Assembly (NCBI GenBank): GCA_002685255.1
Contig: NYWU01000010.1
Coordinates: forward strand, 124,001-188,000
Origin: Idiomarinaceae bacterium
GTDB lineage: Bacteria; Pseudomonadota; Gammaproteobacteria; Enterobacterales; Alteromonadaceae
Length of the DNA stretch: 64,000 bases
Direction of reading: 5' to 3'
In this document: one piece after another, positions 4,449 to 18,414 of the stretch
Layout: the number at the start of each line of letters is the position of its first letter
How positions within the stretch are numbered: the first letter of the stretch is position 1
Notes under the pieces: model-generated
Told to the model about the DNA's origin: nothing
Seen by the model: only the letters and a program-made list of their open reading frames with translations
The model's database searches: none
Program-made: the position numbers and the translations under genes

Positions 4449-5624
4449 TCACAACTCATCAAAGTAGCCGCGGATCTTCACCTGACCCTCTTGCATGGCC
4501 AATTGTCCCTGATACCAAACATGGCTTAAGGCGAGGCTATCGGGACACATCAAGTTTAAATCGGCATCCTTGCCCACCGCGATGGCCCCTTTAGTACCAA
4601 GTTTTAGACGCTGCGCCGCGTTTTGGCTAGCAGCCATCAATACCTGCTCGACGTCAACACCGTCACGAATCGCCTCTTGCACTGACTCAAGTAAACTGAC
4701 CGCTCTGCCCACCTTTAGGCCGCGTAGTTTTCCGTGGCTATCAAAATCAGGCAAACTGGCATTGGCGTCGGTGCTGAGACTAATTTGTGTGGCTTGTACA
4801 CCTTCACTCAGTAATTGAGCTAAGCATTTAGCTGCGGGAATCTCGCCCTCGGCAACCAATTCGGGGGTTGTCGAGCAGGTGAGATCGAGCATTAAACCAT
4901 GGTTGGCGAGTTCAGCACCTTGTTCCATTAGTGATTGATGTCGGTTCATGTGGGTAGGGTAAAACTGGTTGAGGTCGACATCGTGATCATGGCAGCATTG
5001 CTCGATGATATTGAGTTGGCTTGCTTCATCACCCACGTGTAAAAAGGTGATGCCCGCTTTGCCGCTAATCAGTCCACCCACTTTGGCCTCACTTGCGACA
5101 CGAGCGAGTTCTGCGGCATTGAGCTGTGAGCCTCGCTTATCAGCAATCGCGAGCTCTCCGATGCCGATAAATTTATCGATCAGAATAAGGTCATCTCGCA
5201 CGGTGCCCGTAACGGTACGCACCGGGTATTCGTAGGAGCCTGTGTAGCAATAGGTACTAAGACCGAGGTTAGCTAAGCCTCGGGCATTGGCAAGCATATC
5301 GCTGAGAGAACGCGTAGAGGCGTCTGTCCCAAGTCCGGACACCATGGTAGAGATACCTGCTTGAATGGCATCGGTTATCGGCATCACCGGTGTGCGGGTG
5401 TGAAAGCCGCCTTCTCCGCCACCACCATTGAAATGCGCGAGTGGGTCGACAAAGCCAGGTACCAACCAGCGTCCTTGAGCATCTATTTGGGTGACAGATA
5501 GCGAACCGAATGAACACTCTATTTGAGGTTCAATAGCAGCGATGCGTTTATCTGCAATTAGCACATCACAAATGCCTAATTCCGTTGGACTCCAAACATG
5601 AGCGTTCTTTATCAGCGTGAGCAT
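4449..5624 (-). CDS. iadA: Isoaspartyl dipeptidase (IadA-like amidohydrolase) lacking one metal His
   Basis: This 391-residue protein belongs to the amidohydrolase superfamily and aligns along its length with beta-aspartyl dipeptidase IadA, which cleaves beta-Asp-Xaa dipeptides. GGGGEGGFHTRTP, TGSYEYPVRT, LHVGD (H196), PTHMNRH (H225, R228) and STDANAS (D286, S290) match metal and substrate residues of E. coli IadA. The carboxylated lysine position is Glu157 (GIGELAIADKR), a replacement I recall from other homologues. The HxH metal motif reads DPLAHF: the first histidine is Leu62. The codon is CTC, one base from CAC. It is the last gene of the TonB receptor / permease operon, with a 2-bp gap. 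It is either an active variant or impaired. Confidence 0.85.
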   Translation of the reverse strand: MLTLIKNAHVWSPTELGICDVLIADKRIAAIEPQIECSFGSLSVTQIDAQGRWLVPGFVDPLAHFNGGGGEGGFHTRTPVMPITDAIQAGISTMVSGLGTDASTRSLSDMLANARGLANLGLSTYCYTGSYEYPVRTVTGTVRDDLILIDKFIGIGELAIADKRGSQLNAAELARVASEAKVGGLISGKAGITFLHVGDEASQLNIIEQCCHDHDVDLNQFYPTHMNRHQSLMEQGAELANHGLMLDLTCSTTPELVAEGEIPAAKCLAQLLSEGVQATQISLSTDANASLPDFDSHGKLRGLKVGRAVSLLESVQEAIRDGVDVEQVLMAASQNAAQRLKLGTKGAIAVGKDADLNLMCPDSLALSHVWYQGQLAMQEGQVKIRGYFDEL

Positions 5625-5626
5625 GG

Positions 5627-7042
5627 TTAGTTAAATCCTATTGATACAGCGGTAATAACGGTGATGAGCGCCATCGCCATAATAACGAGTTGAAAGCGCC
5701 AAATGATTTTAATCCACTCACTCCAGTCGAGTTTGACGGCACCTAAACAACCGATTAATGAGGCAGACGTGGGAATAATGATGTTAGTTAATCCATCGCC
5801 CAACTGAAAGGCGAGTACGGCGACCTGCCGGCTTACCTCGACTAAATCCGATAGTGGCGCCATCAGTGGCATGGTGAGTGCTGCTTGCCCCGATCCAGAC
5901 GCGATGAAGAAATTGAATACCGACTGAAACACCAGCATCAAGCTGGCACTGGTCGCGGAAGAGGCATCGCCAATCAGTTCACTGGCGTGGTATAGCAAGG
6001 TATTGAGTGTAGATGCTTGGCTTGGATCGTCACCACCCAACAAGAGTACTAATCCCTTAGCAAACCCCACGATAAGCGCCGCGGGCAATAGATCTTGGGC
6101 ACCTTGATTAAAGGCACGCGCCACATCATTAGCACTGAGGCGACGCGCGATAATCGCGATGATACCCACGCTAACACCCATAACGAAAAATTGTGCAGCG
6201 ATTTCGGGGATATAGTAAGCACGAGTGGTTACGCCCCAAATGACCCAAACTAAACCGATAAAAAAGACTGTCAAAATGGCACTATCGGTTTTACCAAACT
6301 GGGACTCGATTAGACCCGCCTCGGCGCGTGCTTGATTATCTTTCGTGCGCTCAGCGTAACGCAGAGTAAATAGGAGTCCTACCAGTGTGAAGGCGAGCCA
6401 TGTCACCATCCGAAACCCGGCACCGGACATTAATGGTACTTCGGCGATGCCCTGTGCGATGGCAACACTGAATGGATTCATCCATGACGTGGCAAAGCCA
6501 ATTTGTGTGGCGACATAGGTGATCAACACGGTTGTCGCGGCGTTATACCCGAGTGAGCGCATCACCGGATAGAGCACGAGGCAAAACGCGATGGCTTCTT
6601 CGCCCATACCAAAGATAGCCCCCGCGAGGGAAAACATTAGAAACATCGTCACTAAAAACACGCGGTCAAAGCGCTGAGTTTTTTGTATAAGGTTCAGCAC
6701 GCCATGTTCTATGGCTGATGTCTTTAACACGATGCCAAATGACCCGCCGACGATGAGAATAAAAGCTATGACGCCAATGGCGGAGCCCCATTTGGTGCCC
6801 GAAACGAGCCCCTCAAAAGCTACGTTTGCGAGACCGATTTTGCCCTGTTCAGCAAACAACGGAAGGTCTGTTTTCTCGCTTGTTTCATAACTAAAACTGC
6901 CCGGTTCGATCGCTTGATTTTCGGGGTTTACCTGAAAGGCACCGGCAGGCACTAACCATGCGGCTAGTGCTGCCAGTAAAGCGACGAAAAATAAGATGAC
7001 CAAGGCATCGGGCATGGCCATCTTGTTACGACGTTTAGACAT
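5627..7042 (-). CDS. YfcC family permease (basic amino acid or peptide carrier)
   Basis: This 471-residue protein is a YfcC/DcuC-superfamily inner-membrane carrier with 10-12 hydrophobic segments. Landmarks are the N-terminal AALAAWLVPAGAF, GMGEEAIAFCLVLYPVM, the TSWMNPFSVAIAQGIAE segment and the C-terminal DGLTNIIIPTSASLIG. Members are annotated as arginine/ornithine antiporter-like or peptide permeases, but few have proven substrates. It lies between a TonB receptor gene (11-bp gap) and iadA (2-bp gap). From that position I infer import of beta-aspartyl dipeptides, or of arginine released from them, across the inner membrane. Confidence 0.88.
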   Translation of the reverse strand: MSKRRNKMAMPDALVILFFVALLAALAAWLVPAGAFQVNPENQAIEPGSFSYETSEKTDLPLFAEQGKIGLANVAFEGLVSGTKWGSAIGVIAFILIVGGSFGIVLKTSAIEHGVLNLIQKTQRFDRVFLVTMFLMFSLAGAIFGMGEEAIAFCLVLYPVMRSLGYNAATTVLITYVATQIGFATSWMNPFSVAIAQGIAEVPLMSGAGFRMVTWLAFTLVGLLFTLRYAERTKDNQARAEAGLIESQFGKTDSAILTVFFIGLVWVIWGVTTRAYYIPEIAAQFFVMGVSVGIIAIIARRLSANDVARAFNQGAQDLLPAALIVGFAKGLVLLLGGDDPSQASTLNTLLYHASELIGDASSATSASLMLVFQSVFNFFIASGSGQAALTMPLMAPLSDLVEVSRQVAVLAFQLGDGLTNIIIPTSASLIGCLGAVKLDWSEWIKIIWRFQLVIMAMALITVITAVSIGFN

Positions 7043-7053
7043 AATTTCGCCTA

Positions 7054-9639
7054 CTAAAAGCTAACGGTATAGCGTAGGCCAATTTCGCGTCCCATCCAGT
7101 CATGGATGGACGAAGCATAGCCGTTGGTGGGTGATGAAGCATAGGGTGGCTCTTCATCCAACAGATTACTGACCGTTAATAATAGCTTATGATTCTCCAT
7201 GATTTGGTAACCAAAACTGGCGTTCCATGTGAGCCATGAATCGACGGTATCGTTGCCGCCCCATTGAAAATCTCCGTCACCCATGCTGCTGACGTAGTGA
7301 CCAATGAGACTGGCATCGATAGCACCTTGATACCACTGCAAGCCAAAGTCAGCGACAAAGTCAGGACGTGCAATTTCAGCGGCACCGCTTAATCGGCCCA
7401 AAAGATCTTCAGGTTCAGAGTCGGCGGTTGCTTTACGCTCATAGCTGAAGGTCTTGGTGGCGCTGGCAAATAATTTGTATTGGCCCCAGCGCTCTGTTTT
7501 CAGGTCATAATCGGTACTAATATCAACGCCATCGGTGGTTTGTTCACCAACGTTGAAGTAACCGGTTCGCATGTAGAAGATGTCGCCATCCGCATCAACA
7601 ACACAGCCAAATGCACCATTCAGCGCTTCGATGCTATTGACGACTGGCGCACTGCCATTCACACAGGCGTCGAGCGTTGTATTCGCGTCGATATCAACAA
7701 TATCCTCGTGGTCATAGCGCCAATAGTCGGCCGTAAACTGCCAGTTGTCCGTGATATTCCACGATACGCCCGTGTTATACGCAGTGGAGTTTTCGGCTTT
7801 GAGATTTGGGTTACCAATGGTTTCTTGATCGAGTTCAAGTTCACCCAAGGCTGCGCCGTTATCGCCGCACAAACTGGCGTATTGCGAACCCGGTTCGCAG
7901 TCAACATAAGCTGCTGACAGTGATGTACCTGCACCGAGCTGATTAAGTGATGGCGCTCTGAAACCGGTGCTTGCCGATGCTCTAAACACGAGGTCATCGG
8001 TGGCACGCCACCGTACCGAGAGTTTCGGATTCACGTCACCACCAAAATCCGAGTAATGGTCATAGCGCAAAGCAACAATAGTGTCTATTGAGCTTGTGAT
8101 AGGTACATGAAACTCACCATACACCGCATACTGATTGCGATCGGCTTCAGCTTGGCTGGCACCCAGCGCAAAAACACCGTTATTAGCGGCGATATCAGCA
8201 GGATTGTCGCTAATTTCTTCGGTACGGTACTCTCCACCGAATACGGACTTCACATAGCCAGCAGGCATTTCGAACAAGTCACCGCTGAGGTTAAAATCGA
8301 TAGATGCTAAAGTCGACTCACCGCGGCGAGGTGCTAATGTGCGCAAGGCAGCAAGCTGCTCTTCGCTATTATCGCGTCCGAGATTAAACGGGTTGAATTG
8401 CCCTGCGTTGGTCGCTGCTTCAACCGCGGCTACCGAATAAAACCCTGAAGTGTGTAGGATTTCATTTTCTGTTTTGCCATAAGCTAAGGCGGTTTCCCAC
8501 TGCCAATAGCCGAGTTCACCACGCAAGCCTGCTAATACTCGATAGGATTTATCGGTGTAACTTTGCGTGCGTCTATCTGGGAAGCGAGAATCTACGTAGA
8601 TCGGGTCAGCGCTGCCGTCCTGTTGATCAATTTGCCGTGCCCAATCCGGCACGATCGGTGAGTCGGCCGGTACAGTAACACCAAAGGCAGCACCTGAGTC
8701 ATAAGCATGGCCTTCATTGTGCTGATACATCGCTTCTGCAAAAAACTCGGTCATATCCCCTAAACGATAGGTATGACTTAGGGTGGCACCCATATTGTCG
8801 TAGTCGGGCTGAATCGCGCGTTGGATAACATAATCGTAGTCACAGCGCTCGCCTGCTAAGGCTTCACCGCCGTTGCAATAAGGTTCTGCGTATTCGGTGC
8901 CGTCGATATCTACAAAAGTGTTGGACTCGTAAGTGACATCAATCGGTCTATCTGAATTGAATAGCGCGTTTTGCTTTACCACATCGAGAATGACGGTGGT
9001 GTTTGAGTTTTTGGTATTAAAGCCGCCGACATAGGTGGCGTTCACACGGCTGGCATCTGAGCTTGCGGTGTCATCACCGTACATTAACGAGATTTCATGA
9101 CCTTCAAAATCGTCACGTAAGATGAAGTTGATCACTCCGGCAATGGCATCAGAGCCGTAGATGCTTGATGCGCCGTCGGTAAGCACATCAACGCGTTCAA
9201 TAGCAGCCATTGGAATATTGTTCACGTTAACGAATGAGTCTGAGCCATTGGCAAACGAACTGACGTTAACGCGACGACCGTTGACCAAGACCAGCGTCGA
9301 ACTGCTACCTAAGCCACGTAAACTCACGCCGGCTGAACCGGCCGGGGCGCCATCGGCACCGCCGACGTTGCCATTTGTCGTGAATGTGCCTGCGGTGGCT
9401 GCCTGAGGCAGATCACGTAGGAATGAGCCTATGGTCAAATGACCGCGGTCAATGATGTCTTCTTGACTGAACATTTGGACAGGGTTTGCACCCTCCATAT
9501 CAACGCCCTTCAAACGCGAGCCAGTCACTTCGATGGTTTCTAAATCTTGTTGTTCTGATTGCTGTGCCTGCTGCACAGCCATAGCGACGGGTGACAGGCA
9601 GAGTCCTGCACCGGCTACAAGTAAGCTCCACTTGGACAT
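7054..9639 (-). CDS. TonB-dependent outer-membrane receptor of the peptide-uptake locus
   Basis: This 861-residue TonB-dependent receptor has a signal peptide ending near AMA. A TonB-box-like LETIEVTGSR follows, then a plug domain (about residues 45-180) with SLRGLGSSSTLVLVNGRRV and DGASSIYGSDAIAGVINFI, then a beta-barrel ending in the terminal aromatic motif RYTVSF. It resembles the large receptors with many paralogues in Alteromonadales and Xanthomonadales that import organic nutrients, more than siderophore receptors. No Fur-like box was seen upstream. As first gene of the operon with the YfcC permease and isoaspartyl dipeptidase, and divergent from a secreted cyanophycinase, it probably takes up aspartyl-arginine-type peptides; that substrate is inferred. 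Confidence 0.92.
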   Translation of the reverse strand: MSKWSLLVAGAGLCLSPVAMAVQQAQQSEQQDLETIEVTGSRLKGVDMEGANPVQMFSQEDIIDRGHLTIGSFLRDLPQAATAGTFTTNGNVGGADGAPAGSAGVSLRGLGSSSTLVLVNGRRVNVSSFANGSDSFVNVNNIPMAAIERVDVLTDGASSIYGSDAIAGVINFILRDDFEGHEISLMYGDDTASSDASRVNATYVGGFNTKNSNTTVILDVVKQNALFNSDRPIDVTYESNTFVDIDGTEYAEPYCNGGEALAGERCDYDYVIQRAIQPDYDNMGATLSHTYRLGDMTEFFAEAMYQHNEGHAYDSGAAFGVTVPADSPIVPDWARQIDQQDGSADPIYVDSRFPDRRTQSYTDKSYRVLAGLRGELGYWQWETALAYGKTENEILHTSGFYSVAAVEAATNAGQFNPFNLGRDNSEEQLAALRTLAPRRGESTLASIDFNLSGDLFEMPAGYVKSVFGGEYRTEEISDNPADIAANNGVFALGASQAEADRNQYAVYGEFHVPITSSIDTIVALRYDHYSDFGGDVNPKLSVRWRATDDLVFRASASTGFRAPSLNQLGAGTSLSAAYVDCEPGSQYASLCGDNGAALGELELDQETIGNPNLKAENSTAYNTGVSWNITDNWQFTADYWRYDHEDIVDIDANTTLDACVNGSAPVVNSIEALNGAFGCVVDADGDIFYMRTGYFNVGEQTTDGVDISTDYDLKTERWGQYKLFASATKTFSYERKATADSEPEDLLGRLSGAAEIARPDFVADFGLQWYQGAIDASLIGHYVSSMGDGDFQWGGNDTVDSWLTWNASFGYQIMENHKLLLTVSNLLDEEPPYASSPTNGYASSIHDWMGREIGLRYTVSF

Positions 9640-9753
9640 AAGAATCTCATTTGTGGTTTTAATTATTTTTTTAGCCTGCCTGCTAGGCAGAAGAAATTTA
9701 TGTCACGAGACCTGTCGATTGGACAGACTGCGGCTCATGAACAAGTTTGCAAG

Positions 9754-9771
9754 GACCTTTAAGAAAAGGTC
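9754..9771 (+). repeat. 7-bp inverted repeat upstream of the leader reading frame
   Basis: GACCTTT (9754-9760) and AAAGGTC (9765-9771) form a perfect stem with a 4-base AAGA loop. It ends seven bases before the GGAGGAGGT ribosome-binding-like sequence. It could be an operator or a leader hairpin; no T-tract follows. Confidence 0.35.
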
Positions 9772-9789
9772 AGATACGGAGGAGGTGAT

Positions 9790-9852
9790 TTGACACACGC
9801 TCGCCGCAGTAACCGCTGGGGCTACCGTGGCCTACTCGTCAAACCATTCTGA
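9790..9852 (+). CDS. Possible Arg-rich leader peptide (20 residues, TTG start)
   Basis: A TTG codon four bases after the strong GGAGGAGGT (9778-9786) opens a 20-codon frame ending in TGA at 9850-9852. Its product reads MTHARRSNRWGYRGLLVKPF, with four arginines among residues 5-13 and one lysine. It precedes the cyanophycinase gene by 187 bp and is followed at once by mutually exclusive short hairpins. Arginine is the end product expected from cyanophycin, so a translation-sensing leader is conceivable. Weak points are the non-ATG start, short stems, no T-tract and a possible promoter downstream of it. Confidence 0.25.
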   Translation: MTHARRSNRWGYRGLLVKPF

Positions 9853-9877
9853 TAGGTAGAAACTATCGTAATGATAG
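9851..9877 (+). repeat. Alternating GATAG/CTATC/GATAG elements
   Basis: GATAG (9851-9855), CTATC (9863-9867) and GATAG (9873-9877) allow the central element to pair with either neighbour. This is the geometry of alternative hairpins or of overlapping operator half-sites. The stems are only five base pairs, with one possible G-U extension. Confidence 0.3.
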
Positions 9878-10038
9878 CTTGCTAGTTGATATGCTTTCTT
9901 TAACATAGTATTTATTATTTAGTCTTCTTGTCGCAGTTGACGTTTATAGGGATAGCACTCGCAATCAGCGCTGTCAATTTTGCTAATTGTCATAGTGACT
10001 GTTCCAGAACAAGCTCATTATCTTATCGAGGCTGTGAC

Positions 10039-11223
10039 ATGAAGTTATCTAAGGCTTGCTTAAACTATCTTATAATCACTACGCTGACTGCGCTTTCTCT
10101 AAGTGGTTATGCAAGTGAAAAAAACGACGATTATCGCCATCTTCTACTGGCGGGTGGGGCGTTAAAAATTTGCTCCAATTATAGCCCTTCCAACTGCAAA
10201 GAAACCGACTGGATCGATACTCTTAGCAACAATAAACTGAAAGATGACCGCGAGTTTGTGCGTGTTGGTTTATCTAAAAGCGCGCAGTCGGTGGCAATAT
10301 TCCAGCGTTTTATTACGATGGCGAAACAAACACAAAATGCAGGTGAACAACCACTTATTTTATTTTCAACGTCGGCTTCTGTTAATCCTTACGATGCCGT
10401 TATTTTTTACCAATCGGTCTTCCAACAACTTGGCGCAAAAAGTATGTGGTTGCCGTTAGATGTTGCTGTGGTAAAAGCGCGTTCGGAGGGGCGCTGCGAA
10501 GATTTAAGTCAGGTGCAGTCAGAACTACTGAACAACAACGATCTTGATGAACGCTACCCCGAGTTATATCAGCAACAGGTCAATTTCTGTAAAAGTCCCC
10601 AACAAACCACTGATTTATTAGCGCAAGCTAATGGCCTATTTTTTAATGGCGGTGATCAAAATTTGACGCGCCAAGCGTGGGTTCGAGCTGATAATAGTCC
10701 TTCACATGCCTTAACTTTATTATCCGAACGCGTAGCGAACCGACAAACCGTTGTTGGTGGTACGAGTGCAGGAACCGCGGTACAAAGTGCAGGGCCTATG
10801 ATCTCGAATGGCAGTAGTAAAGCAGCCATGCAGCAAGGGAGTTTTGCAGTAGAGCCTCCCCCGCGCGATTGTGATTTACATAACAGTTGTCCCGCGGGTT
10901 TAAGTGTCGACTCACTGACTTACAATCCGGCCGGAGGCACCGGGTTATTTCGTTTTGGTACGCTCGATACGCATTTTTCTGAGCGCGGTCGACAAGCGCG
11001 CTTGATGCGTTTAGCTGCGGATACATCGACTGCTTTAGCGGTGGGTGTCGATGAAACGACCGCGTTGGTCGTTAATTTGGACAATGGGGCGTTTGATGTC
11101 ATCGGCGAACATGGTGTGTTTATTGTGCGTGACGCAACAGTACAAGACGATGGCGTCGCCGCGCAGGTGTCTTATCTTTGGTCGGGCTCACAGGGACGCT
11201 TACTCACGCAAGGCACGCCGTAA
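10039..11223 (+). CDS. Secreted cyanophycinase-like S51 peptidase
   Basis: This 394-residue protein resembles exported cyanophycinases, serine exopeptidases that cut multi-L-arginyl-poly-aspartate into beta-Asp-Arg dipeptides. The start at 10039 is preferred over an upstream in-frame start at 9928: GAGG lies seven bases before this ATG, and a signal peptide (MKLSKACLNYLIITTLTALS, cut near GYA-S) begins here. The nucleophile is Ser243 in GGTSAG. The FFNGGDQ motif (G204-Q207) and DTHFSERGR (D310, H312) match the S51 cyanophycinase active site, where DQHF is more usual. It is longer than intracellular CphB (about 270 residues) and close to extracellular types. It is divergent from the receptor / permease / isoaspartyl dipeptidase operon, which suits the products. 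Confidence 0.85.
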   Translation: MKLSKACLNYLIITTLTALSLSGYASEKNDDYRHLLLAGGALKICSNYSPSNCKETDWIDTLSNNKLKDDREFVRVGLSKSAQSVAIFQRFITMAKQTQNAGEQPLILFSTSASVNPYDAVIFYQSVFQQLGAKSMWLPLDVAVVKARSEGRCEDLSQVQSELLNNNDLDERYPELYQQQVNFCKSPQQTTDLLAQANGLFFNGGDQNLTRQAWVRADNSPSHALTLLSERVANRQTVVGGTSAGTAVQSAGPMISNGSSKAAMQQGSFAVEPPPRDCDLHNSCPAGLSVDSLTYNPAGGTGLFRFGTLDTHFSERGRQARLMRLAADTSTALAVGVDETTALVVNLDNGAFDVIGEHGVFIVRDATVQDDGVAAQVSYLWSGSQGRLLTQGTP

Positions 11224-11225
11224 CG

Positions 11226-11573
11226 TTACTCTGACCAAACCGCATATTCATTGCCGCTGGGGCAGGTGAAGTGAAATCGATGACCGCCTGGAAAGCTGAA
11301 AATGGGCTTAATGATTTCACCACCTGCCTGTTCGACGGCATGCAGACTCTTTTGTAAGTCGGGACTGTAAAGTACCACCAATACGCTGCCTTGTGCCGTC
11401 TGCGCTTTTAGCGGCGCACTGTAAAAGCCACCATCAATACCGGCATTTTTGATAGCCGCGTAATCGGGACCATAGTCGATATACTCCCAACCGAAGGCGT
11501 CATTGAAAAACTGCTTAGTTGCGGCGATATCGCTTGCAGGCATTTCAATATAATTAATTTTAGTGGTACTCAT
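11226..11573 (-). CDS. VOC family protein (glyoxalase/bleomycin-resistance fold)
   Basis: This 115-residue protein has the vicinal-oxygen-chelate fold signature. It begins with INYIEMPASDIAATKQFFNDAFGW, has GGFYSAPL in the middle and ends PGGHRFHFTCPSGNEYAVW with the C-terminal metal/substrate strand. The VOC family spans glyoxalases, dioxygenases and antibiotic-binding proteins, so the reaction is not assignable. AGGAG lies about six bases before the ATG. It converges with the cyanophycinase gene with only two bases between the stop codons, and appears to be a single-gene unit. Confidence 0.88.
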   Translation of the reverse strand: MSTTKINYIEMPASDIAATKQFFNDAFGWEYIDYGPDYAAIKNAGIDGGFYSAPLKAQTAQGSVLVVLYSPDLQKSLHAVEQAGGEIIKPIFSFPGGHRFHFTCPSGNEYAVWSE

Positions 11574-11626
11574 TCTTGGCTCCTAAGCAACCATGGCATC
11601 TAAGTGTAGCCCATAATTGTGAGTGC

Positions 11627-11929
11627 TCAAATTAAGTGCCCCATTGCCTCAATAGGGTGCAGGGTGAACCGAATGGGCTCTTTAAAGTTGAGTCTTTGCA
11701 AGGCGGCTCTTATTTCGGTGAGGTCGTGTTCGTTACACACGACCTCGGCCGCTAACATGCGTCGGGCGCCGCGGATTTGTTCGGCAATATCGTAGCGTTC
11801 GTGGCGACGACTGAAGCCATCAATCTCATACAGGCTAAAGCCCGAAAGAGCGTCTATTTGTAATAGGCAGTCGACCACATCTGCTTTTTGCTCACGACTA
11901 AAATACAACTTTAGCAGTTTACTGTTCAT
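11627..11929 (-). CDS. DUF3240 family protein
   Basis: This 100-residue protein matches DUF3240, a small family with a PII-like ferredoxin fold that is found beside heavy-metal RND pumps. Its start overlaps the 3' end of the RND pump gene by 11 bp, so the two are translationally coupled. Visible features are a C-terminal FTLHPIEAMGHLI and a central RRHERYDIAEQIRGARRM. A regulatory or metal-sensing role is inferred from the family context; no enzymatic motif is seen. Confidence 0.8.
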   Translation of the reverse strand: MNSKLLKLYFSREQKADVVDCLLQIDALSGFSLYEIDGFSRRHERYDIAEQIRGARRMLAAEVVCNEHDLTEIRAALQRLNFKEPIRFTLHPIEAMGHLI

Positions 11930-14900
11930 GGTAGTGCTTCCTATTTGTGATTTGATAGAGCGCCGGTAATAACAACAAGGTCGCCAGCGTCGCGGTTACC
12001 AGTCCACCGATGACCACGGCGGCGAGCGGACGTTGAATCTCGGAACCTGGACCGGTAGAGACCAACAGGGGAATGAGTCCAAATATCGCCGTGATGGCTG
12101 TAATTAATACCGGCCTTAAACGGTCGGTTGCGCCAGCGATCACGAGCGAGGGCAGGTGCGAGAAGTGTATTTTGGTTTGCTCAAAGTGGCTGACCATAAC
12201 GATCCCGTTAAGAATCGCCACACCCATTAATGCGATGAAACCTACGGATGCAGGCACAGACATATATTGACCGCTAATCCACAGTGAAATAGCACCGCCA
12301 CTTAATGCGAACGGTATATTCGTGAGTACGATCGCGGTTAACCCAAGTGAGCCCATCGAAGTAAACAAAAGTATGACAATCAGCAACAGTGCAACAGGTA
12401 TTACCATCAGTAGATTGGCGCTGGCACGCGCTTGGTTCTCAAACTCACCGCCATATTCGACAAAATAACCGGCAGGTAGCTCAACCTGCTTCTCAATTTG
12501 GCTTTGTAGTTCATTTACAAACCCAACGACGTCACGATTTTCAACGTTCGTTGTAATGAGTGCATAACGGTGACTATTTTCGCGCTCGATAATGGCTGGA
12601 CCTTGCTCGAAACTGATAGTAGCGACTTCGCTAAGTGGCACGGCTTTACCTTGTTCGGCAATAATTGTGAGCGAGTTGAGTCGTGTCACAGCTTGGTATC
12701 CGGAACGTTCACTCTGTGAGCCGAACACAATAGGTGTGCGAATTCTTCCATTCACCGCCTCGCTGACCGAGTAGCCACTTAATTGTGAGTGGATAAATTC
12801 GCTAAAGGCACGCTTTGAAATGCCATAGTAATTCAGCTTTTGCATATCAGGAACGATACTTAGAAACTGCGCACCGGTTATCACGCTTGCCTGCACATCG
12901 ACGGCACCCTCAACATCGCGTGCCGACGCAACAATTTCATCGGTCAAACCTGCCAATGTGTCCATCTCATCGCCGAACACTTTAATTGAAACTGCACCGG
13001 TGCTGCCCGTTAGCATTTCCGAAATACGCATTTGAATCGGCTGCGTCACGTTCACATTCATGCCAGGGTAACCTGATACAACTTCACGGATGGCATCAAT
13101 TAAGGCTTGTTTATTGTCAAAACGCCACTCATCTCGTGGTTTCAGCTCCATAAACACATCGGTCTCATTTAATCCCATGGGATCAAGACCCAGTTCATCA
13201 GACCCTGTACGTGCGACAATTTGCTTAATTTCAGGGACTTGTTCTAGTAGTGCGTTTTCGACTTGCGTATCAATGGCTATTGACTCGCTGAGTGACAAGG
13301 TGGGCGCTTTTTCAAACTGTACGATAATGTCGCCTTCATCCATGGTCGGCATAAATGTCTTACCGACCATGATGAAACTTAAGGCGCTCAGACCAAACAG
13401 GACTACAAAACCCGTGATTAACAAAGGTTTGTGCGTTAATGCGCTATTGAGTATTACGCGGTAGCTTGCCTGCAAGCGTTCTAACATCTTATTGCGGCGT
13501 TTATTAGGACGCATCATCAATGAGGCGAGTGCGGGTATCAAGGTCAATGCGGTAACAAGTGATGCTGCAATAGCGATGACAATTGTGAGCGCAACTGGCG
13601 AAAACAATTTGCCTTCAAGGCCTGTCAGCGTCAATAGGGGTAGAAACACGAGTACGATAATAATGGTTCCACTGACTACTGAGGGCGCAACCGATAAGCT
13701 TGCGCGATAAATTTTATGCAGGATCGGCAAGTTTTTCTCTGAATTGAGTTCGGTTTCAACTTTCTCGGTAATGACGACGGATGAATCGACAATCATACCG
13801 ATGGCAATAACTAACCCGCCCAAGCTCATCAAGTTGGCTGATAAGCCAATCTGACGCAAGCAGATGAATGTAATGAGCGCTGCGATAGGAATGGACAGCG
13901 AGACTAAGATAGACGCGCGGATATTTCGTAAAAAGAACACCAATACCGCGATGACCAATACAATAGATTCCATCAACGCATCAGAAATTCCGGCAATCGC
14001 TGTATCGATCAGGCCTTTACGGTTATAGAAAACATTGATGTCAGTGTGTTGCGGCAAGCTGCTTTGTAGTTGTGTGAGCTTATCTTTAACAGACGCGACT
14101 ACAGCCGCTGCATTAGCGCCTTTTAAGCCAACCACTAAGCCTTCTACCGCCTCTTGACCGTCTTTGGTGATAGCGCCAAATCGCGGTAAGTAACTCAATG
14201 AGACTTCGCCAAGCTGCTCGAGTCGGTAGATATCACCATTGGCATTTTCCACGCTCAGTGCGGCTAAATCGTTTAATTCAACGATACGGCCCGAGACGCG
14301 AGCACTAAAGGTTTCGGTGCCCAGTGTGACGCGTCCTAAGTTACCGACTTGATTGGCTTCCTCCAAACGTGTCTTGATGGTATCTAATGACACCTTAGCT
14401 TCGCTCAGTTTGATGGGATCGGGACTGAACTGAAAAGTCCTTACCTTGCCGCCTAAATTAGTCACATCGGCTACGCCCTCTACTGTACGCAACGCAGGAC
14501 GAATGACCCAGTCGAGTAAGTGTCGCTTTTCACTGAGCGTGAGGTCGGGGTTTTCAACAGTGAACATAAACATTTCACTTAATGGTGTACTCATGGGCGC
14601 AAGTCCACCTTGTATACCCGCGGGCAGCGCATCGCGCACGGCGGCAAGCTTCTCTGCCACTTGTTGGCGCGCCCAATAAATGTCAGTGCCTTCCTCAAAA
14701 TCTAATGTAATCGAGGTGATACCGTATTTAGTTGTCGAACGTAAGATGGTCTGGTTAGGAATCCCCAGCAATTCGGTTTCGATGGGGTGCGTGACTTGAT
14801 TTTCTACCCGTTCTGCGGCCATTCCGGGAGCTCGCAAGATAATTTTAACTTGCGTCGGTGATATCTCTGGAAAGGCATCCACCGGGAGTTGCCGAAATGA

Positions 14901-14987
14901 TTGTATTCCCGCTGCTATGATGAGCAAAAAGGTGATAAAAACGAATAGTCGGTTTTTTAATGAGAAACTGAGCAATTTGGCAATCAT
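11919..14987 (-). CDS. CusA/CzcA-type RND efflux pump
   Basis: This 1022-residue inner-membrane protein is a heavy-metal-efflux-type RND pump, which drives export from periplasm and cytoplasm using the proton gradient. It has the N-terminal helix and PVDAFPEISPTQVKI, the TM4 segment GLVIAIGMIVDSSVVITE with the acidic residue expected for proton relay, two large periplasmic loops, and FIALMGVAILNGIVMVSHFEQ in the second half. The metal specificity (copper/silver or zinc/cobalt) cannot be decided by eye. It shares 4-bp and 11-bp overlaps with the adaptor and DUF3240 genes, forming a tight tolC-like / adaptor / pump / DUF3240 operon. Confidence 0.93.
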   Translation of the reverse strand: MIAKLLSFSLKNRLFVFITFLLIIAAGIQSFRQLPVDAFPEISPTQVKIILRAPGMAAERVENQVTHPIETELLGIPNQTILRSTTKYGITSITLDFEEGTDIYWARQQVAEKLAAVRDALPAGIQGGLAPMSTPLSEMFMFTVENPDLTLSEKRHLLDWVIRPALRTVEGVADVTNLGGKVRTFQFSPDPIKLSEAKVSLDTIKTRLEEANQVGNLGRVTLGTETFSARVSGRIVELNDLAALSVENANGDIYRLEQLGEVSLSYLPRFGAITKDGQEAVEGLVVGLKGANAAAVVASVKDKLTQLQSSLPQHTDINVFYNRKGLIDTAIAGISDALMESIVLVIAVLVFFLRNIRASILVSLSIPIAALITFICLRQIGLSANLMSLGGLVIAIGMIVDSSVVITEKVETELNSEKNLPILHKIYRASLSVAPSVVSGTIIIVLVFLPLLTLTGLEGKLFSPVALTIVIAIAASLVTALTLIPALASLMMRPNKRRNKMLERLQASYRVILNSALTHKPLLITGFVVLFGLSALSFIMVGKTFMPTMDEGDIIVQFEKAPTLSLSESIAIDTQVENALLEQVPEIKQIVARTGSDELGLDPMGLNETDVFMELKPRDEWRFDNKQALIDAIREVVSGYPGMNVNVTQPIQMRISEMLTGSTGAVSIKVFGDEMDTLAGLTDEIVASARDVEGAVDVQASVITGAQFLSIVPDMQKLNYYGISKRAFSEFIHSQLSGYSVSEAVNGRIRTPIVFGSQSERSGYQAVTRLNSLTIIAEQGKAVPLSEVATISFEQGPAIIERENSHRYALITTNVENRDVVGFVNELQSQIEKQVELPAGYFVEYGGEFENQARASANLLMVIPVALLLIVILLFTSMGSLGLTAIVLTNIPFALSGGAISLWISGQYMSVPASVGFIALMGVAILNGIVMVSHFEQTKIHFSHLPSLVIAGATDRLRPVLITAITAIFGLIPLLVSTGPGSEIQRPLAAVVIGGLVTATLATLLLLPALYQITNRKHYHEQ

Positions 14988-16000
14988 TGCTGCGCCTCCT
15001 CGCGACTATCGATTATACCTTTAAGCGCAGCGACAGAATGAGTCACGATGGGATTATCGAGCGATGTGGAAGCGGCTACATAGTAATCTTCACCTTCAAC
15101 AGCGCTTACGCTAACTGGAATCGGATGAATGGTTTGTTTATCAACACTAAAAACGACAGGTTCGCCGTTTAATGATGACACCGCTGAGCCAGGTACTTTG
15201 AATGCGTTTGCGATGTTTCGGAGCGGAATTACACTCATTCGTTGGTAAAGTGTAAATTTGCTCTCTGTTAGCGGCGATGACCACAGTGTGGTAAAGCCAT
15301 TTCGTGTCGATTGCTCGCGATAGTCAATAGTGAATCGTTCGCCTTGAACGCTGATGTGGTGCACCGACGATGCAAGTTCATTGGGCGCTTGAACGGCAAG
15401 GCGTATTTCAGACCTATCAATGACGTAGCCAATTCGCATGTCATCGGAGTCTGATTGCCATACGCCGTCGATGGGGGCCTTTAGTTCTGCGCTATCATCG
15501 GCGAGTTGATGAAAGCGCGATAAAAGAATTTTAATTTCATGCATTTGATCCGACAGACGGAGGTATTGGTCTAAAAAGTTTTGCCAATCATCAGCTGACA
15601 AGGCATTGCGTTGGTATAAATTGTACTTACTTTTATGCTGTTGTTGAGCAACGTCATATTGTGCTTTTACCGTCTCGAGACGGTGAAAAAAGTGTTCGAC
15701 AGACGGGCCCGTGATGGTTGCAATGCGTTGACCTAAATTAACGCGAGTACCATCCGTCACTGCAAATTGGACATGTGCGTTCTCGAACGGATTCGCAATC
15801 ACTAAATGCTTCTGGGTCATCGGTTGGTAAGTCGCCAATAGCGGTGCTCCTGGTACCATATCAGCAACTTCCGGCTGCTGTAGCCCAAGCTCATAGTTCT
15901 TAAGTTCTGCGATAGAGACTGCTGTTTGTGCAGATACTTGCGTTGAACTCAACGCCACTAGTATTAAAAGAAATGAATAACCAAGGGTACGACGGTTCAT
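14984..16000 (-). CDS. RND efflux periplasmic adaptor subunit
   Basis: This 338-residue membrane-fusion protein links the RND pump to the outer-membrane channel. It has a signal peptide (cut after VSA) and a lipoyl-like segment around DGTRVNLGQRIATITGP. A short alpha-hairpin rich in Q, K and H follows (about residues 105-165), then a second lipoyl half at ELKAPIDGVW and a beta-barrel domain. Identity is supported as much by position as by motifs, because the sequence is divergent and shorter than CusB (about 400). Its start overlaps the channel gene stop by 4 bp and its stop overlaps the pump start by 4 bp. Confidence 0.85.
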   Translation of the reverse strand: MNRRTLGYSFLLILVALSSTQVSAQTAVSIAELKNYELGLQQPEVADMVPGAPLLATYQPMTQKHLVIANPFENAHVQFAVTDGTRVNLGQRIATITGPSVEHFFHRLETVKAQYDVAQQQHKSKYNLYQRNALSADDWQNFLDQYLRLSDQMHEIKILLSRFHQLADDSAELKAPIDGVWQSDSDDMRIGYVIDRSEIRLAVQAPNELASSVHHISVQGERFTIDYREQSTRNGFTTLWSSPLTESKFTLYQRMSVIPLRNIANAFKVPGSAVSSLNGEPVVFSVDKQTIHPIPVSVSAVEGEDYYVAASTSLDNPIVTHSVAALKGIIDSREEAQQ

Positions 16001-17166
16001 AAAGAGACTCCCTGAGCTTGATTGAGTTGTGCTTTGGCCATCTGAAGCTGTACTTGCGTGAGTTGGAAGAACTTCTGATAGTTGAGTTGTTCTATCAGCC
16101 GCTCGATGTACATTTTTGTATCAATTTGGTGTTGTCGATATAGCGCGTCGAGCTCATCGAGTGCTTGCGAACTGATAGAAGCATTTTGTTTCGCCAGCTC
16201 AACTTGTTGTTGTAATTGTTGATACTGACTTCGGCGCTGGGCGATTCGGGTTTGAATGTCGATCACGGTCGTTTTTAAGCGGGTATTGATATCAGATTGC
16301 TCGCGCTGCAACGCATCAAGGTCGAGCGACGAAAGTGTCCGAGAAAATGTTAAGGGTATCGCGAGTCCGACCCCGAGCTGTGTTTCTGTTCCCGCGACTG
16401 AACGAATATCTTTGACACCGGCCGTTGCGCGCCAGTTACTTTGACTCGCGGCATTATTTTCGGCGTTTAATAGCGCAAGTTGCCATTGTAATTCAATCGC
16501 TTGAACGCTCGGGTGCGTCAGATTCGACGAGTCCGAATTAGGTTCTTCTAGGGTGTCGGGCAACTGAGCTTGACCCGTGTATTGCTGCCATAGCCGATAG
16601 AAATGCTGTAACTCGACCTGCTTTTTATTGAGCTCAACGTTATAGCTATTAAGGCGCTGCTCAATAATGAGTTGCGCATACTTAGGCGATTGCTTTTGCT
16701 GAACTTGAAGCTCGACAGTCGCCAGCATTTTATTGAGTGCATCGATAGTGTGCTTTATAAAGCGTTGCTCGACCTCAGCTTGTTGAGTTTCCCAAAACAG
16801 TTGACGAATTGTGCCAGATATCCACAAGTCGATTTGTTGCTGTTGAACAACATGGTATTGATGACTCAATTGTTTTGATGACTGAAGAAGTTCATGTTGC
16901 TTGGGTGTGAGAAACGCAAATTCAAATAATAGTTCAGTTTCATCACTACCTATCGCATTATCTTGGGTCTGCCAGCGCATAATAGAGGCGGTGATGGGTT
17001 CTGCTAACCAACTCCGTGTGTTGAAGGTTTGTAAGGTCGTAGGATCATGTTCGAGAATATTCGACCGAGCGTAATCTACGAGGTCATTCGCAAAAGCATT
17101 GTTCAGAAAAAATAACGCACTCAGCGAAACAAAAATTTTCGGTGCTTTGATGCGGGTAAAAGACAT
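15997..17166 (-). CDS. TolC family outer-membrane efflux protein
   Basis: This 389-residue outer-membrane channel component has a signal peptide ending near NAFA, followed by two long coiled-coil stretches rich in Q, L and E, typical of TolC/CusC tandem repeats. The start is placed at 17166 (MSFTRIK) because GGAG lies six bases before it; the upstream in-frame ATG at 17178 lacks a ribosome-binding site. At 389 residues it is somewhat short for the family. It is first in the efflux operon and divergent from the membrane LuxR-type regulator. Confidence 0.85.
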   Translation of the reverse strand: MSFTRIKAPKIFVSLSALFFLNNAFANDLVDYARSNILEHDPTTLQTFNTRSWLAEPITASIMRWQTQDNAIGSDETELLFEFAFLTPKQHELLQSSKQLSHQYHVVQQQQIDLWISGTIRQLFWETQQAEVEQRFIKHTIDALNKMLATVELQVQQKQSPKYAQLIIEQRLNSYNVELNKKQVELQHFYRLWQQYTGQAQLPDTLEEPNSDSSNLTHPSVQAIELQWQLALLNAENNAASQSNWRATAGVKDIRSVAGTETQLGVGLAIPLTFSRTLSSLDLDALQREQSDINTRLKTTVIDIQTRIAQRRSQYQQLQQQVELAKQNASISSQALDELDALYRQHQIDTKMYIERLIEQLNYQKFFQLTQVQLQMAKAQLNQAQGVSL

Positions 17167-17226
17167 CATCAACTCCATCGGTTAATATCAACACATAATC
17201 TAGGGTTTTTATGATGAAAAGACATC

Positions 17227-17238
17227 GGACACATGTCC
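17227..17238. promoter_or_regulatory. Inverted repeat in the efflux/regulator divergent promoter region
   Basis: GGACA (17227-17231) and TGTCC (17234-17238) form an inverted repeat around CA, midway between the efflux operon start (17166) and the LuxR-type regulator start (17264). An 8-bp palindrome GCTATAGC (17246-17253) lies next to it. One of them is a plausible operator for the adjacent regulator; this is positional inference. Confidence 0.4.
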
Positions 17239-17263
17239 TATAACAGCTATAGCAGGGGGATTT

Positions 17264-17737
17264 ATGACAATTGACCGATTGTTGATGGTCGTTTTTTTGT
17301 TGATTGCAGGGGCCAATGTGTCGGATGTTGTAGCTGACTATAAAATGGAAGTGGCAGTTTGGCATTTGATCGTTGAGGGGATTACCGTCGTCATTTCTAT
17401 TATCGCTTTCATCGTGCTCTGGCGTCGTGTTATTCGCAGAAACAATGAACTGGCGCATTTACGCACTGCGTTGATAAAGCATCAAGAAAGTGCAGATGCG
17501 AGAGAGGAGGCCTCCTACTCAACGGTAAAAACTTGGTTTAATGAATGGAAGCTTTCGCCGAGTGAGCAAGAGGTCGCTGTATTGATGATCAAAGGGCTGA
17601 CATTTAACGAAATTGCGGAAGTCAGGAGTACGAAGGAAAAAACCGTGCGACAACAGGCATCCGCCATCTATGCGAAGTCTGGTTTGAGTGGTCGCAATAA
17701 TTTATCAGCGTGGCTGATCGATGCATTACTTAATTGA
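17264..17737 (+). CDS. Membrane-anchored LuxR-type HTH transcriptional regulator
   Basis: This 157-residue protein combines two N-terminal hydrophobic segments (about residues 5-25 and 33-53), a charged linker predicted as coiled coil (about 55-85) and a C-terminal LuxR/GerE helix-turn-helix (about 95-155). The helix-turn-helix reads LSPSEQEVAVLMIKGLTFNEIA, then KTVRQQASAIYAKSGLSGRNNL. There is no receiver or ligand domain, so it appears to be a one-component regulator that senses at the membrane. A strong AGGGGGA precedes the ATG. It is divergent from the RND efflux operon, its likely target. A hairpin terminator follows. Confidence 0.85.
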   Translation: MTIDRLLMVVFLLIAGANVSDVVADYKMEVAVWHLIVEGITVVISIIAFIVLWRRVIRRNNELAHLRTALIKHQESADAREEASYSTVKTWFNEWKLSPSEQEVAVLMIKGLTFNEIAEVRSTKEKTVRQQASAIYAKSGLSGRNNLSAWLIDALLN

Positions 17738-17784: not shown

Positions 17785-18414
17785 TTAACGGGTACCAAAA
17801 ATTTTATCCCCGGCATCGCCCAGCCCCGGGATGATATATCCCTGTTCATTGAGCTTCTCATCGAGTGATGCAGTAAAAATTCGTACATCGGGATGCTTGG
17901 CTAATACGGCTTCAACGCCTTCCGGTGCCGCCACCAACACGAGTACGCGAATGTCCTTACAGCCTTGTTGCTTGAGCATGTCGAGGGTGGCAATCATACT
18001 GCCGCCGGTAGCGAGCATCGGGTCGATAACGAGAGCGATGCGCTGGTCGATGTCGTTAACGAATTTATCGAAATAGCTGACGGGCTCTAACGTTTCCTCG
18101 TTACGGTATAAGCCGACAACACTGACTTTTGCGCTGGGGATGAGTGTGGTGACGCCATCCAGCATGCCCATACCGGCGCGTAGAATGGGGACTACCGTGA
18201 CTTTTTTACCTTTAAGTTGCTCGACCTCAATAGGTGTTTCGTTCCAGCCCTTGATGGTATGTGGCTCCAGCATAAAGTCACTGGTGGCCTCGTAGGTAAG
18301 TAACGTACTGATTTCATTGGCAAGTTCGCGGAAGCTCTTGGTCGAGATTCCGTGTTTACGCATTAACCCAAGCTTATGCTGTACAAGCGGATGCTTAATG
18401 ACCTGTAATCCCAT
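17785..18414 (-). CDS. upp: Uracil phosphoribosyltransferase
   Basis: Upp converts uracil and PRPP to UMP in pyrimidine salvage. The 209-residue length is typical. The N-terminal [14 protein letters not shown], the [13 protein letters not shown] segment, the PRPP-binding loop [17 protein letters not shown] and the C-terminal [13 protein letters not shown] uracil-binding stretch are all intact. The protein is cytosolic. No uraA uracil permease is linked to it, unlike in E. coli. It stands alone between the regulator terminator and yfhL. Confidence 0.97.

Follow-up and report, generated by a model that had tools for sequence, protein, structure and literature searches.

According to PMC10206079, Ben Hania 2017 described a “cyanophycin utilization locus” that joins a cyanophycinase gene, iadA, and a transporter gene; the title given in the reference list of PMC10206079 places the strain in the Bacteroidetes. 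Table 4 of PMC10206079 also records clusters of cyanophycinase with iadA or iaaA in genomes without cphA1. Extracellular cyanophycinases, known as CphE, are reported from Pseudomonas anguilliseptica BI and P. alcaligenes DIP1 (PMC3235067), and in Citromicrobium sp. JLT1363 a TonB receptor has been proposed to take up cyanophycin because its gene neighbors that of a cyanophycinase (PMC3400609). The concept of a scavenging locus, an extracellular CphE, and a receptor beside a cyanophycinase are thus already in print. Here we describe a four-gene locus in a stretch of 64,000 nucleotides (“the window”; contig NYWU01000010.1 of assembly GCA_002685255.1, an Idiomarinaceae bacterium placed by GTDB in the family Alteromonadaceae of the order Enterobacterales). 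The locus encodes an S51 cyanophycinase-like protein, a TonB-dependent receptor, a YfcC-family permease, and an isoaspartyl dipeptidase of the IadA family, and it is probably a set for scavenging external cyanophycin, in which cyanobacteria store nitrogen, by way of the dipeptide β-Asp-Arg.

The locus resembles those of Ben Hania 2017 and PMC10206079 in that a cyanophycinase-type gene, an isoaspartyl dipeptidase gene, and a transporter gene are clustered and cphA is absent, although its S51 protein scores below family cut-offs and its IadA is a variant. As far as those loci are described in PMC10206079, ours differs in combining a TonB receptor with a dedicated YfcC permease, in its gammaproteobacterial hosts, and in its IadA, which carries leucine (Leu62) at the first histidine of the HxH metal motif; we refer to the two kinds as LxH and HxH. 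Its likeness to the Citromicrobium arrangement lies in the receptor beside the cyanophycinase gene, but that case is one genome, and its account, in the text available, names neither YfcC nor IadA (PMC3400609). What is new is the Leu62 subfamily, the separation of its gene context from that of cphA-linked IadA, and the pairing with YfcC; we found no description of the subfamily, of this separation, or of the receptor-YfcC pairing in the open-access literature searched, which leaves subscription journals mostly uncovered.

Linkage of the four genes in related genomes

A first-pass annotation of the window had assigned these four open reading frames to their families. All four lie at the coordinates it gave, and three of the assignments held in profile searches: the permease scored 634.2 bits against NF008611 (cut-off, 500), the receptor has a plug (PF07715) and a barrel (PF00593) over cut-offs, and the IadA score is given below. 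The receptor, permease, and dipeptidase genes are separated by gaps of 11 and 2 bp, respectively, and the S51 gene is divergent from them, as the annotation had said. Such short gaps make cotranscription of the three genes likely. A consensus scan of the divergent region found no promoter-like or terminator-like sites.

To judge the linkage, we compared matches for all four proteins in 118 genomes of the family and mapped 73 stretches (L067 to L139). IadA genes scoring at least 248 bits numbered 52, comprising 38 LxH, 13 HxH, and one unclassed fragment at a contig end (G048). A neighbor was counted if it lay within 7 kb of IadA, with a tally threshold of 150 bits for YfcC, and the 38-locus figures are the sum of 37 tallied loci and the window. 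A second survey covered 295 genomes of the order and yielded 33 LxH loci with wide flanks; LxH loci lacking such flanks (in G467, G487, G538, and G555) were excluded from context counts. Receptor searches scored the best 8 candidates per genome in the family and the best 3 in the order, and neither tally takes account of phylogeny.

In this check, which the first-pass annotation had suggested, the linkage proved strong. Among the 38 family LxH loci, YfcC is present in 38, S51 in 37, and the TonB receptor in 33, or 35 (34 of the tallied loci and the window) if we include a distant protein of about 1,000 residues that fills the receptor place in L084 and L085. The exceptions are G111, without S51; G083 and G033, whose stretches as used contain no receptor; and G094, which has lost the receptor and retains S51 and YfcC as fragments, here counted as present. 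The permease is especially informative. All 41 YfcC matches of at least 285 bits lie in the locus, 38 of them with LxH IadA as a neighbor and the other 3 next to S51 and the receptor in loci that have no IadA, and the next match falls to 214 bits. This subfamily of the permease therefore appears confined to the locus among the 118 genomes, and together with the neighbor tallies this confinement led us to reject chance linkage. In a wider, class-wide sample of 321 genomes, IadA was found in 5, the four besides the window all being HxH, and a long S51 protein was found in 2 genomes only: the source genome and, in the absence of any IadA match, G134.

The source assembly (2.77 Mb, 98.5% complete) contains no cyanophycin synthetase gene over the TIGR02068 cut-off; its best match, at 105 bits, covers only C-terminal sequence of the model. 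For the window, the first-pass annotation had already noted the lack of such a gene. The same cut-off is exceeded in 12 of the 118 family genomes.

Table 1. Coordinates of the locus features within the window
Feature	Position	Strand	Basis
Isoaspartyl dipeptidase of the IadA family (LxH subfamily), without signal sequence	4449-5624	-	TIGR01975 over cut-off; fold match to IadA structures
Leu62 codon, at the site of the first His ligand of the metals (H68 in E. coli IadA)	5439-5441	-	alignment
YfcC-family permease, subfamily found solely in this locus (118 family genomes)	5627-7042	-	NF008611 over cut-off
TonB-dependent receptor, 861 aa, rarer of the locus's two receptor types	7054-9639	-	PF00593 and PF07715 over cut-offs; tree
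Divergent intergenic region	9640-10038	.	consensus scan
S51 cyanophycinase-like protein, signal-like N-terminus, short form (394 aa, 1185 bp)	10039-11223	+	
Stretch holding the triad	10765-11055	+	Ser243 codon 10765-10767, His312 10972-10974, Glu339 11053-11055

The Leu62 subfamily of IadA and its gene context

The window IadA scores 401.2 bits against TIGR01975 (cut-off, 331.25) over residues 2 to 389, and its predicted fold matches the IadA structures 1onw, 8dqn, 5xgw, and 7cf6 with a template modeling (TM) score of about 0.9. Despite passing the family model it is a variant rather than a standard IadA. Its motif reads L62/H64, so that the first ligand pair of the standard two-zinc site (H68/H70 in E. 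coli IadA, EcIadA) is incomplete, while His stands at position 62 in all four IadAs of known structure that we aligned, from E. coli, Leucothrix, Fervidobacterium, and Colwellia. Leu occupies position 62 in all 38 family loci, which excludes an accident of one strain or a sequencing error, and in all 33 further loci of the order survey; it also occurs in 4 more order loci read from short stretches (L264 and L269 to L271). A scan of nucleotide records with the peptides PG[FL]VD[SP]L[VA]H and GGGGEGGF gave Leu in 55 and His in 25 of 80 among the matches listed, a split biased by the patterns, and we took rates from the whole-genome surveys instead. By record title, the Leu bearers among these matches were Gammaproteobacteria and the His bearers were Firmicutes-type bacteria and Holophagaceae.

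The remainder of the site is conserved. In an alignment of 55 LxH and 38 HxH rows, position 62 is Leu in 55/55 and His in 38/38, and neither group varies at H64, E71, Y131, E157, R164, H196, H225, R228, or D286; positions 104 and 290 vary, and the Thr106 site is T, S, or C in both. The positions numbered in EcIadA as H70, E77, Y137, K162 (or Glu), R169, H201, H230, R233, and D285 are likewise unchanged in all 38 family loci, and the bridging residue of the window enzyme is of the Glu type, as in the Colwellia enzyme (CpsIadA). We looked for an obvious substitute for the lost ligand and rejected the idea, because the sole other column to pass the sorting threshold was V59/I59. On a tree built without these two sorting columns, the origin of LxH requires one change, although the support for the split in the Shimodaira-Hasegawa-like approximate likelihood ratio test (SH-aLRT) is only 30. 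Between the window and its closest relative among the genomes compared, G072 (taken as Idiomarina fontislapidosi), which has the same locus at 94 to 98% protein identity, IadA is under purifying selection, with a ratio of nonsynonymous to synonymous change (dN/dS) of 0.054.

The two kinds of IadA keep different company. In the family and order surveys combined, 71 LxH loci include S51 in 52, the TonB receptor in 47 (or 50 when the distant protein is counted), YfcC in 55, a HisP-type ATP-binding cassette (ABC) transporter in 12, and none of these genes in 4; cphA or cphB adjoins none of the 71. By comparison, 20 HxH loci include cphB in 14, cphA in 13, and none of the genes sought in 6; not one of the 20 has an S51, receptor, or YfcC gene of the kinds found with LxH IadA. 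Two of the HxH loci (L138 and L139) hold a distant YfcC-like protein with 33 to 38% local identity, under the tally threshold. Both its Leu62 and this neighborhood of S51, receptor, and YfcC or an ABC transporter thus set the subfamily apart from the structurally characterized IadAs.

The ABC transporters, found at 12 of the 33 order loci, are of the Lys/Arg/Orn/His type, which hints that the LxH enzyme meets a basic side chain. The substrate-binding protein examined in one genome falls nearest the Lys/Arg/Orn group, with 229.9 bits against TIGR01096, below the cut-off of 256.35. Furthermore, three genomes (G011, G060, and G093) have S51, receptor, and YfcC without LxH IadA, and all three encode HxH IadA elsewhere, compared with 3 of 37 LxH-bearing genomes (Fisher P = 0.002, ignoring phylogeny; G011 and G060 share a genus). 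This pattern suggests that the two kinds of IadA do the same job.

Some loci have additional neighbors. The cluster in Microbulbifer guangxiensis (L173:9167-14363) contains receptor, YfcC, and IadA together with a cyanophycinase that is over the cut-off (176.5 bits), an AraC-type regulator, an aspartate ammonia-lyase, and an aminotransferase. Rheinheimera-type loci (L153, L180, L191, L194, L210, and others) adjoin genes of about 1,490 and 470 codons, which by eye we take to resemble the subunits of glutamate synthase, a resemblance that would fit nitrogen assimilation.

The S51 protein, the receptor, and the flanking DNA

The assignment of the S51 protein is carried by its fold and its catalytic residues. 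The first nine Foldseek matches of its structural model (mean predicted local distance difference test score, 83.0) are chains of 7uqv, 7uqw, and 3en0, with E values from 5e-15 to 8e-13, and dipeptidase E ranks after these cyanophycinase chains. The protein aligns to 3en0 and 7uqv, and the triad S243/H312/E339 is present. This triad and nine other compared positions are kept in all 39 full-length locus copies, as are the GGDQ and Arg positions; outside the locus, only 3 of 14 orphan S51 copies have the full triad, and 11 have lost it. Judged by eye and by hydropathy, the N-terminus starts with charged residues, continues with a hydrophobic core, and offers a plausible site for cleavage, so that the protein may be exported. 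Its triad, with a GXSXG serine, resembles that of CphE; CphE is also described as having a signal peptide (PMC3235067), to which the N-terminus here may correspond. Compared by description rather than by sequence alignment, the two share a His-Glu spacing of 27 residues (His224 and Glu251 in CphEal) and are of similar gene length (1,260 bp for CphE), but the Ser-His spacing is 53 in CphE and 69 here (PMC3235067).

Most locus relatives of the S51 protein are longer, at about 510 to 665 residues. The window copy is 96% identical to that of I. fontislapidosi and 43 to 50% identical to the other aligned Idiomarina S51 proteins. A second S51 paralog of 565 residues (L004:8791-10488, equivalent to C18:108791-110488) lies outside the window, about 14 kb upstream of its first position. 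It has lost the Ser and His of the triad, yet its dN/dS against I. fontislapidosi is 0.025, indicating strong purifying selection. The orphan S51 genes may represent a family of pseudo-cyanophycinases.

Loci carry one or the other of two receptor types. The usual receptor in family loci has about 925 to 1,030 residues and is only about 30 to 35% identical to that of the window, which is instead 62 to 64% identical to receptors that lie elsewhere in five family genomes and beside S51 in G045. Such receptors (above 1,100 bits) occur in 8 family genomes, and matches of at least 500 bits in 14 of the 295 order genomes; every one of these genomes has LxH IadA. In 12 of the 14 order genomes, including one Shewanella, the window-type receptor sits inside the locus; the receptors of L291 and S. 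gaetbuli (L149) have the same sequence. In a quick tree the window receptor joins those of Shewanella-type loci (SH-aLRT, 91), and the Aliidiomarina locus receptor falls in another group. This alternation of types suggests that the locus swaps receptors while keeping its permease and dipeptidase. In some Rheinheimera-type loci (L084:8612-11680, L085, L152, L156, L159, L188, and L305), the receptor place is held by the protein of about 1,000 residues; in the one copy tested, from L084, we found a CarboxypepD_reg domain but no Pfam plug or barrel.

Comparison with I. fontislapidosi also bears on the recent history of the S51 gene. DNA identity, compared from 9300 onward, is 97% over positions 9302 to 11195 and collapses at the S51 3' end; the tract may reach further to the left. 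The synonymous distance is 0.08 for S51 and 0.42 to 0.91 for the IadA, YfcC, receptor, and NnrS genes. These values point to a recent exchange of the tract between the two species. Adjoining the S51 3' end is an insertion or deletion of about 6.5 kb. Positions 11226 to 17737 of the window, between S51 and a gene at 17785, are missing from the corresponding place in I. fontislapidosi and contain a glyoxalase-like gene over the PF00903 cut-off, genes that by eye resemble a resistance-nodulation-division (RND) efflux pump, and others.

The proposed pathway and its alternatives

The first-pass annotation had read the locus as a means of using external cyanophycin or other β-aspartyl peptides. The conserved linkage, the S51 triad and signal-like N-terminus, the lack of cphA, and the locus-confined permease all favor that reading, while the further claim that the four genes cover every step goes beyond these observations. 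The annotation had mentioned neither the altered metal site of IadA nor the swapped receptor, the shortened S51 protein, or the upstream paralog. In the pathway we propose, exported S51 would cut cyanophycin, either outside the cell or in the periplasm, to β-Asp-Arg dipeptides, the TonB receptor would carry soluble fragments or dipeptides through the outer membrane, YfcC would move the dipeptide through the inner membrane, and cytosolic IadA would split it into aspartate and arginine for nitrogen and carbon.

Several observations weigh against this pathway, some of them by favoring an alternative. The S51 protein scores below both relevant cut-offs (PF03575, 19.7 against 23.9; TIGR02069, 95.6 against 126.6), although a longer relative in L102 passes PF03575 at 28.5 bits; we therefore call the protein cyanophycinase-like, a weaker assignment than the annotation had implied. 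Most locus copies contain a C-terminal region and an internal segment of about 85 residues that are missing from the window protein; the I. aquatica copy has both. The window protein is also less constrained than its neighbors, with a dN/dS of 0.26 against I. fontislapidosi, a figure based on few changes. The receptor raises another difficulty. A β-Asp-Arg dipeptide is small enough to pass porins, and the need for a receptor is thus unexplained unless larger pieces are imported. Its presence suggests either that oligomers enter and S51 finishes their digestion in the periplasm or that the receptor provides high-affinity capture; it would be most needed in the former case.

The altered IadA invites the objection that the enzyme is dead or has been repurposed for binding, sensing, or another substrate and that an IaaA-type enzyme completes the hydrolysis. 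A canonical metal ligand is lost, LmIadA is reported to bind zinc through both histidines, H64 and H66 (PMC10206079), and HxH mutants of mycobacterial NagA (PMC6016474) and PpOngB (PMC12017989) are reported to be inactive, from which the same could be expected of Leu62. An IaaA-type gene (PF01112) lies on another contig of the source genome and could perform the last step, and its presence in 85 of the 118 family genomes weakens the argument that LxH and HxH enzymes do the same job. We nonetheless consider this objection unlikely to be correct. The other ligands have stayed fixed over deep divergence, unlike the orphan S51 proteins, most of which have lost residues of the triad, and HxH IadA is present in all three genomes that have the locus without LxH, two of them of one genus. 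The Zn1 ligands given in the text on CpsIadA (His73, Glu166, and Asp293; PMC5517026) are those kept in the LxH enzymes, although CpsIadA itself has the first His. Moreover, QxN replaces HxH in E. coli NagA, whose site is mononuclear (PMC6016474), showing that natural non-HxH members with one metal exist among amidohydrolases; there both His are replaced, and here only the first, by a hydrophobic residue. On this evidence, together with the purifying selection noted above, LxH IadA is likely an active isoaspartyl dipeptidase, and we think that its metal center is reduced, with either the beta metal alone or an alpha site in which H64, E157, and D286 hold the metal.

Other alternatives concern the substrate. 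If the locus served general scavenging of β-aspartyl peptides from damaged protein, cyanophycin would not be its true substrate. IadAs are promiscuous at the second residue, including one from a cyanophycin cluster (PMC10206079 and PMC5517026), and 18 of the 33 order LxH loci have no nearby S51, with 12 of these having the ABC transporter, 2 YfcC only, and 4 none of the genes. The near-constant S51 in family loci, its preserved cyanophycinase triad and nine accompanying positions, and its closer match to cyanophycinase than to dipeptidase E make this explanation improbable. Somewhat less easily dismissed, though still doubtful, is the idea that YfcC carries free basic amino acids such as arginine rather than the dipeptide, as its NCBIfam label (“putative basic amino acid antiporter YfcC”) and the basic amino acid ABC systems beside some LxH IadA genes would have it. 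Because IadA has no signal-like N-terminus, however, the dipeptide should reach the cytosol, and the confinement of all 41 strong YfcC matches to the locus also counts against the idea. Finally, S51 peptidases can confer resistance to isoaspartyl-nucleotide antibiotics of the microcin C type by inactivating them (PMC9239234), but a protective function is extremely improbable here given the signal-like N-terminus of the S51 protein, its linkage to uptake genes and IadA, and its nearest folds, which are cyanophycinases.

We return to cyanophycin scavenging as the preferred explanation. A more specific and tentative proposal, which we hold as possible rather than probable, is that LxH IadAs form a separate class of dipeptidase that arose once in the Gammaproteobacteria by loss of the alpha-metal His, works with a single metal or with three ligands at the alpha site, and is tuned to imported β-Asp-Arg. 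The dedicated TonB receptor and YfcC would then supply the so far missing route by which that dipeptide is taken up. The uptake of cyanophycin fragments by heterotrophs is little described, and the published accounts, in the text available, name the cyanophycinase and dipeptidase and are vague about transporters. A conserved, testable receptor-permease pair would fill this gap and account in part for the use of cyanobacterial nitrogen by marine bacteria. In addition, the Leu62 subfamily is a natural experiment on the need of IadA for two metals, and Leu62 offers a one-residue marker for sorting scavenging from storage-linked IadA in genomes of this order. If our proposal is true, scavenging and storage-linked breakdown of cyanophycin use different metal chemistry and can be told apart by a single residue.

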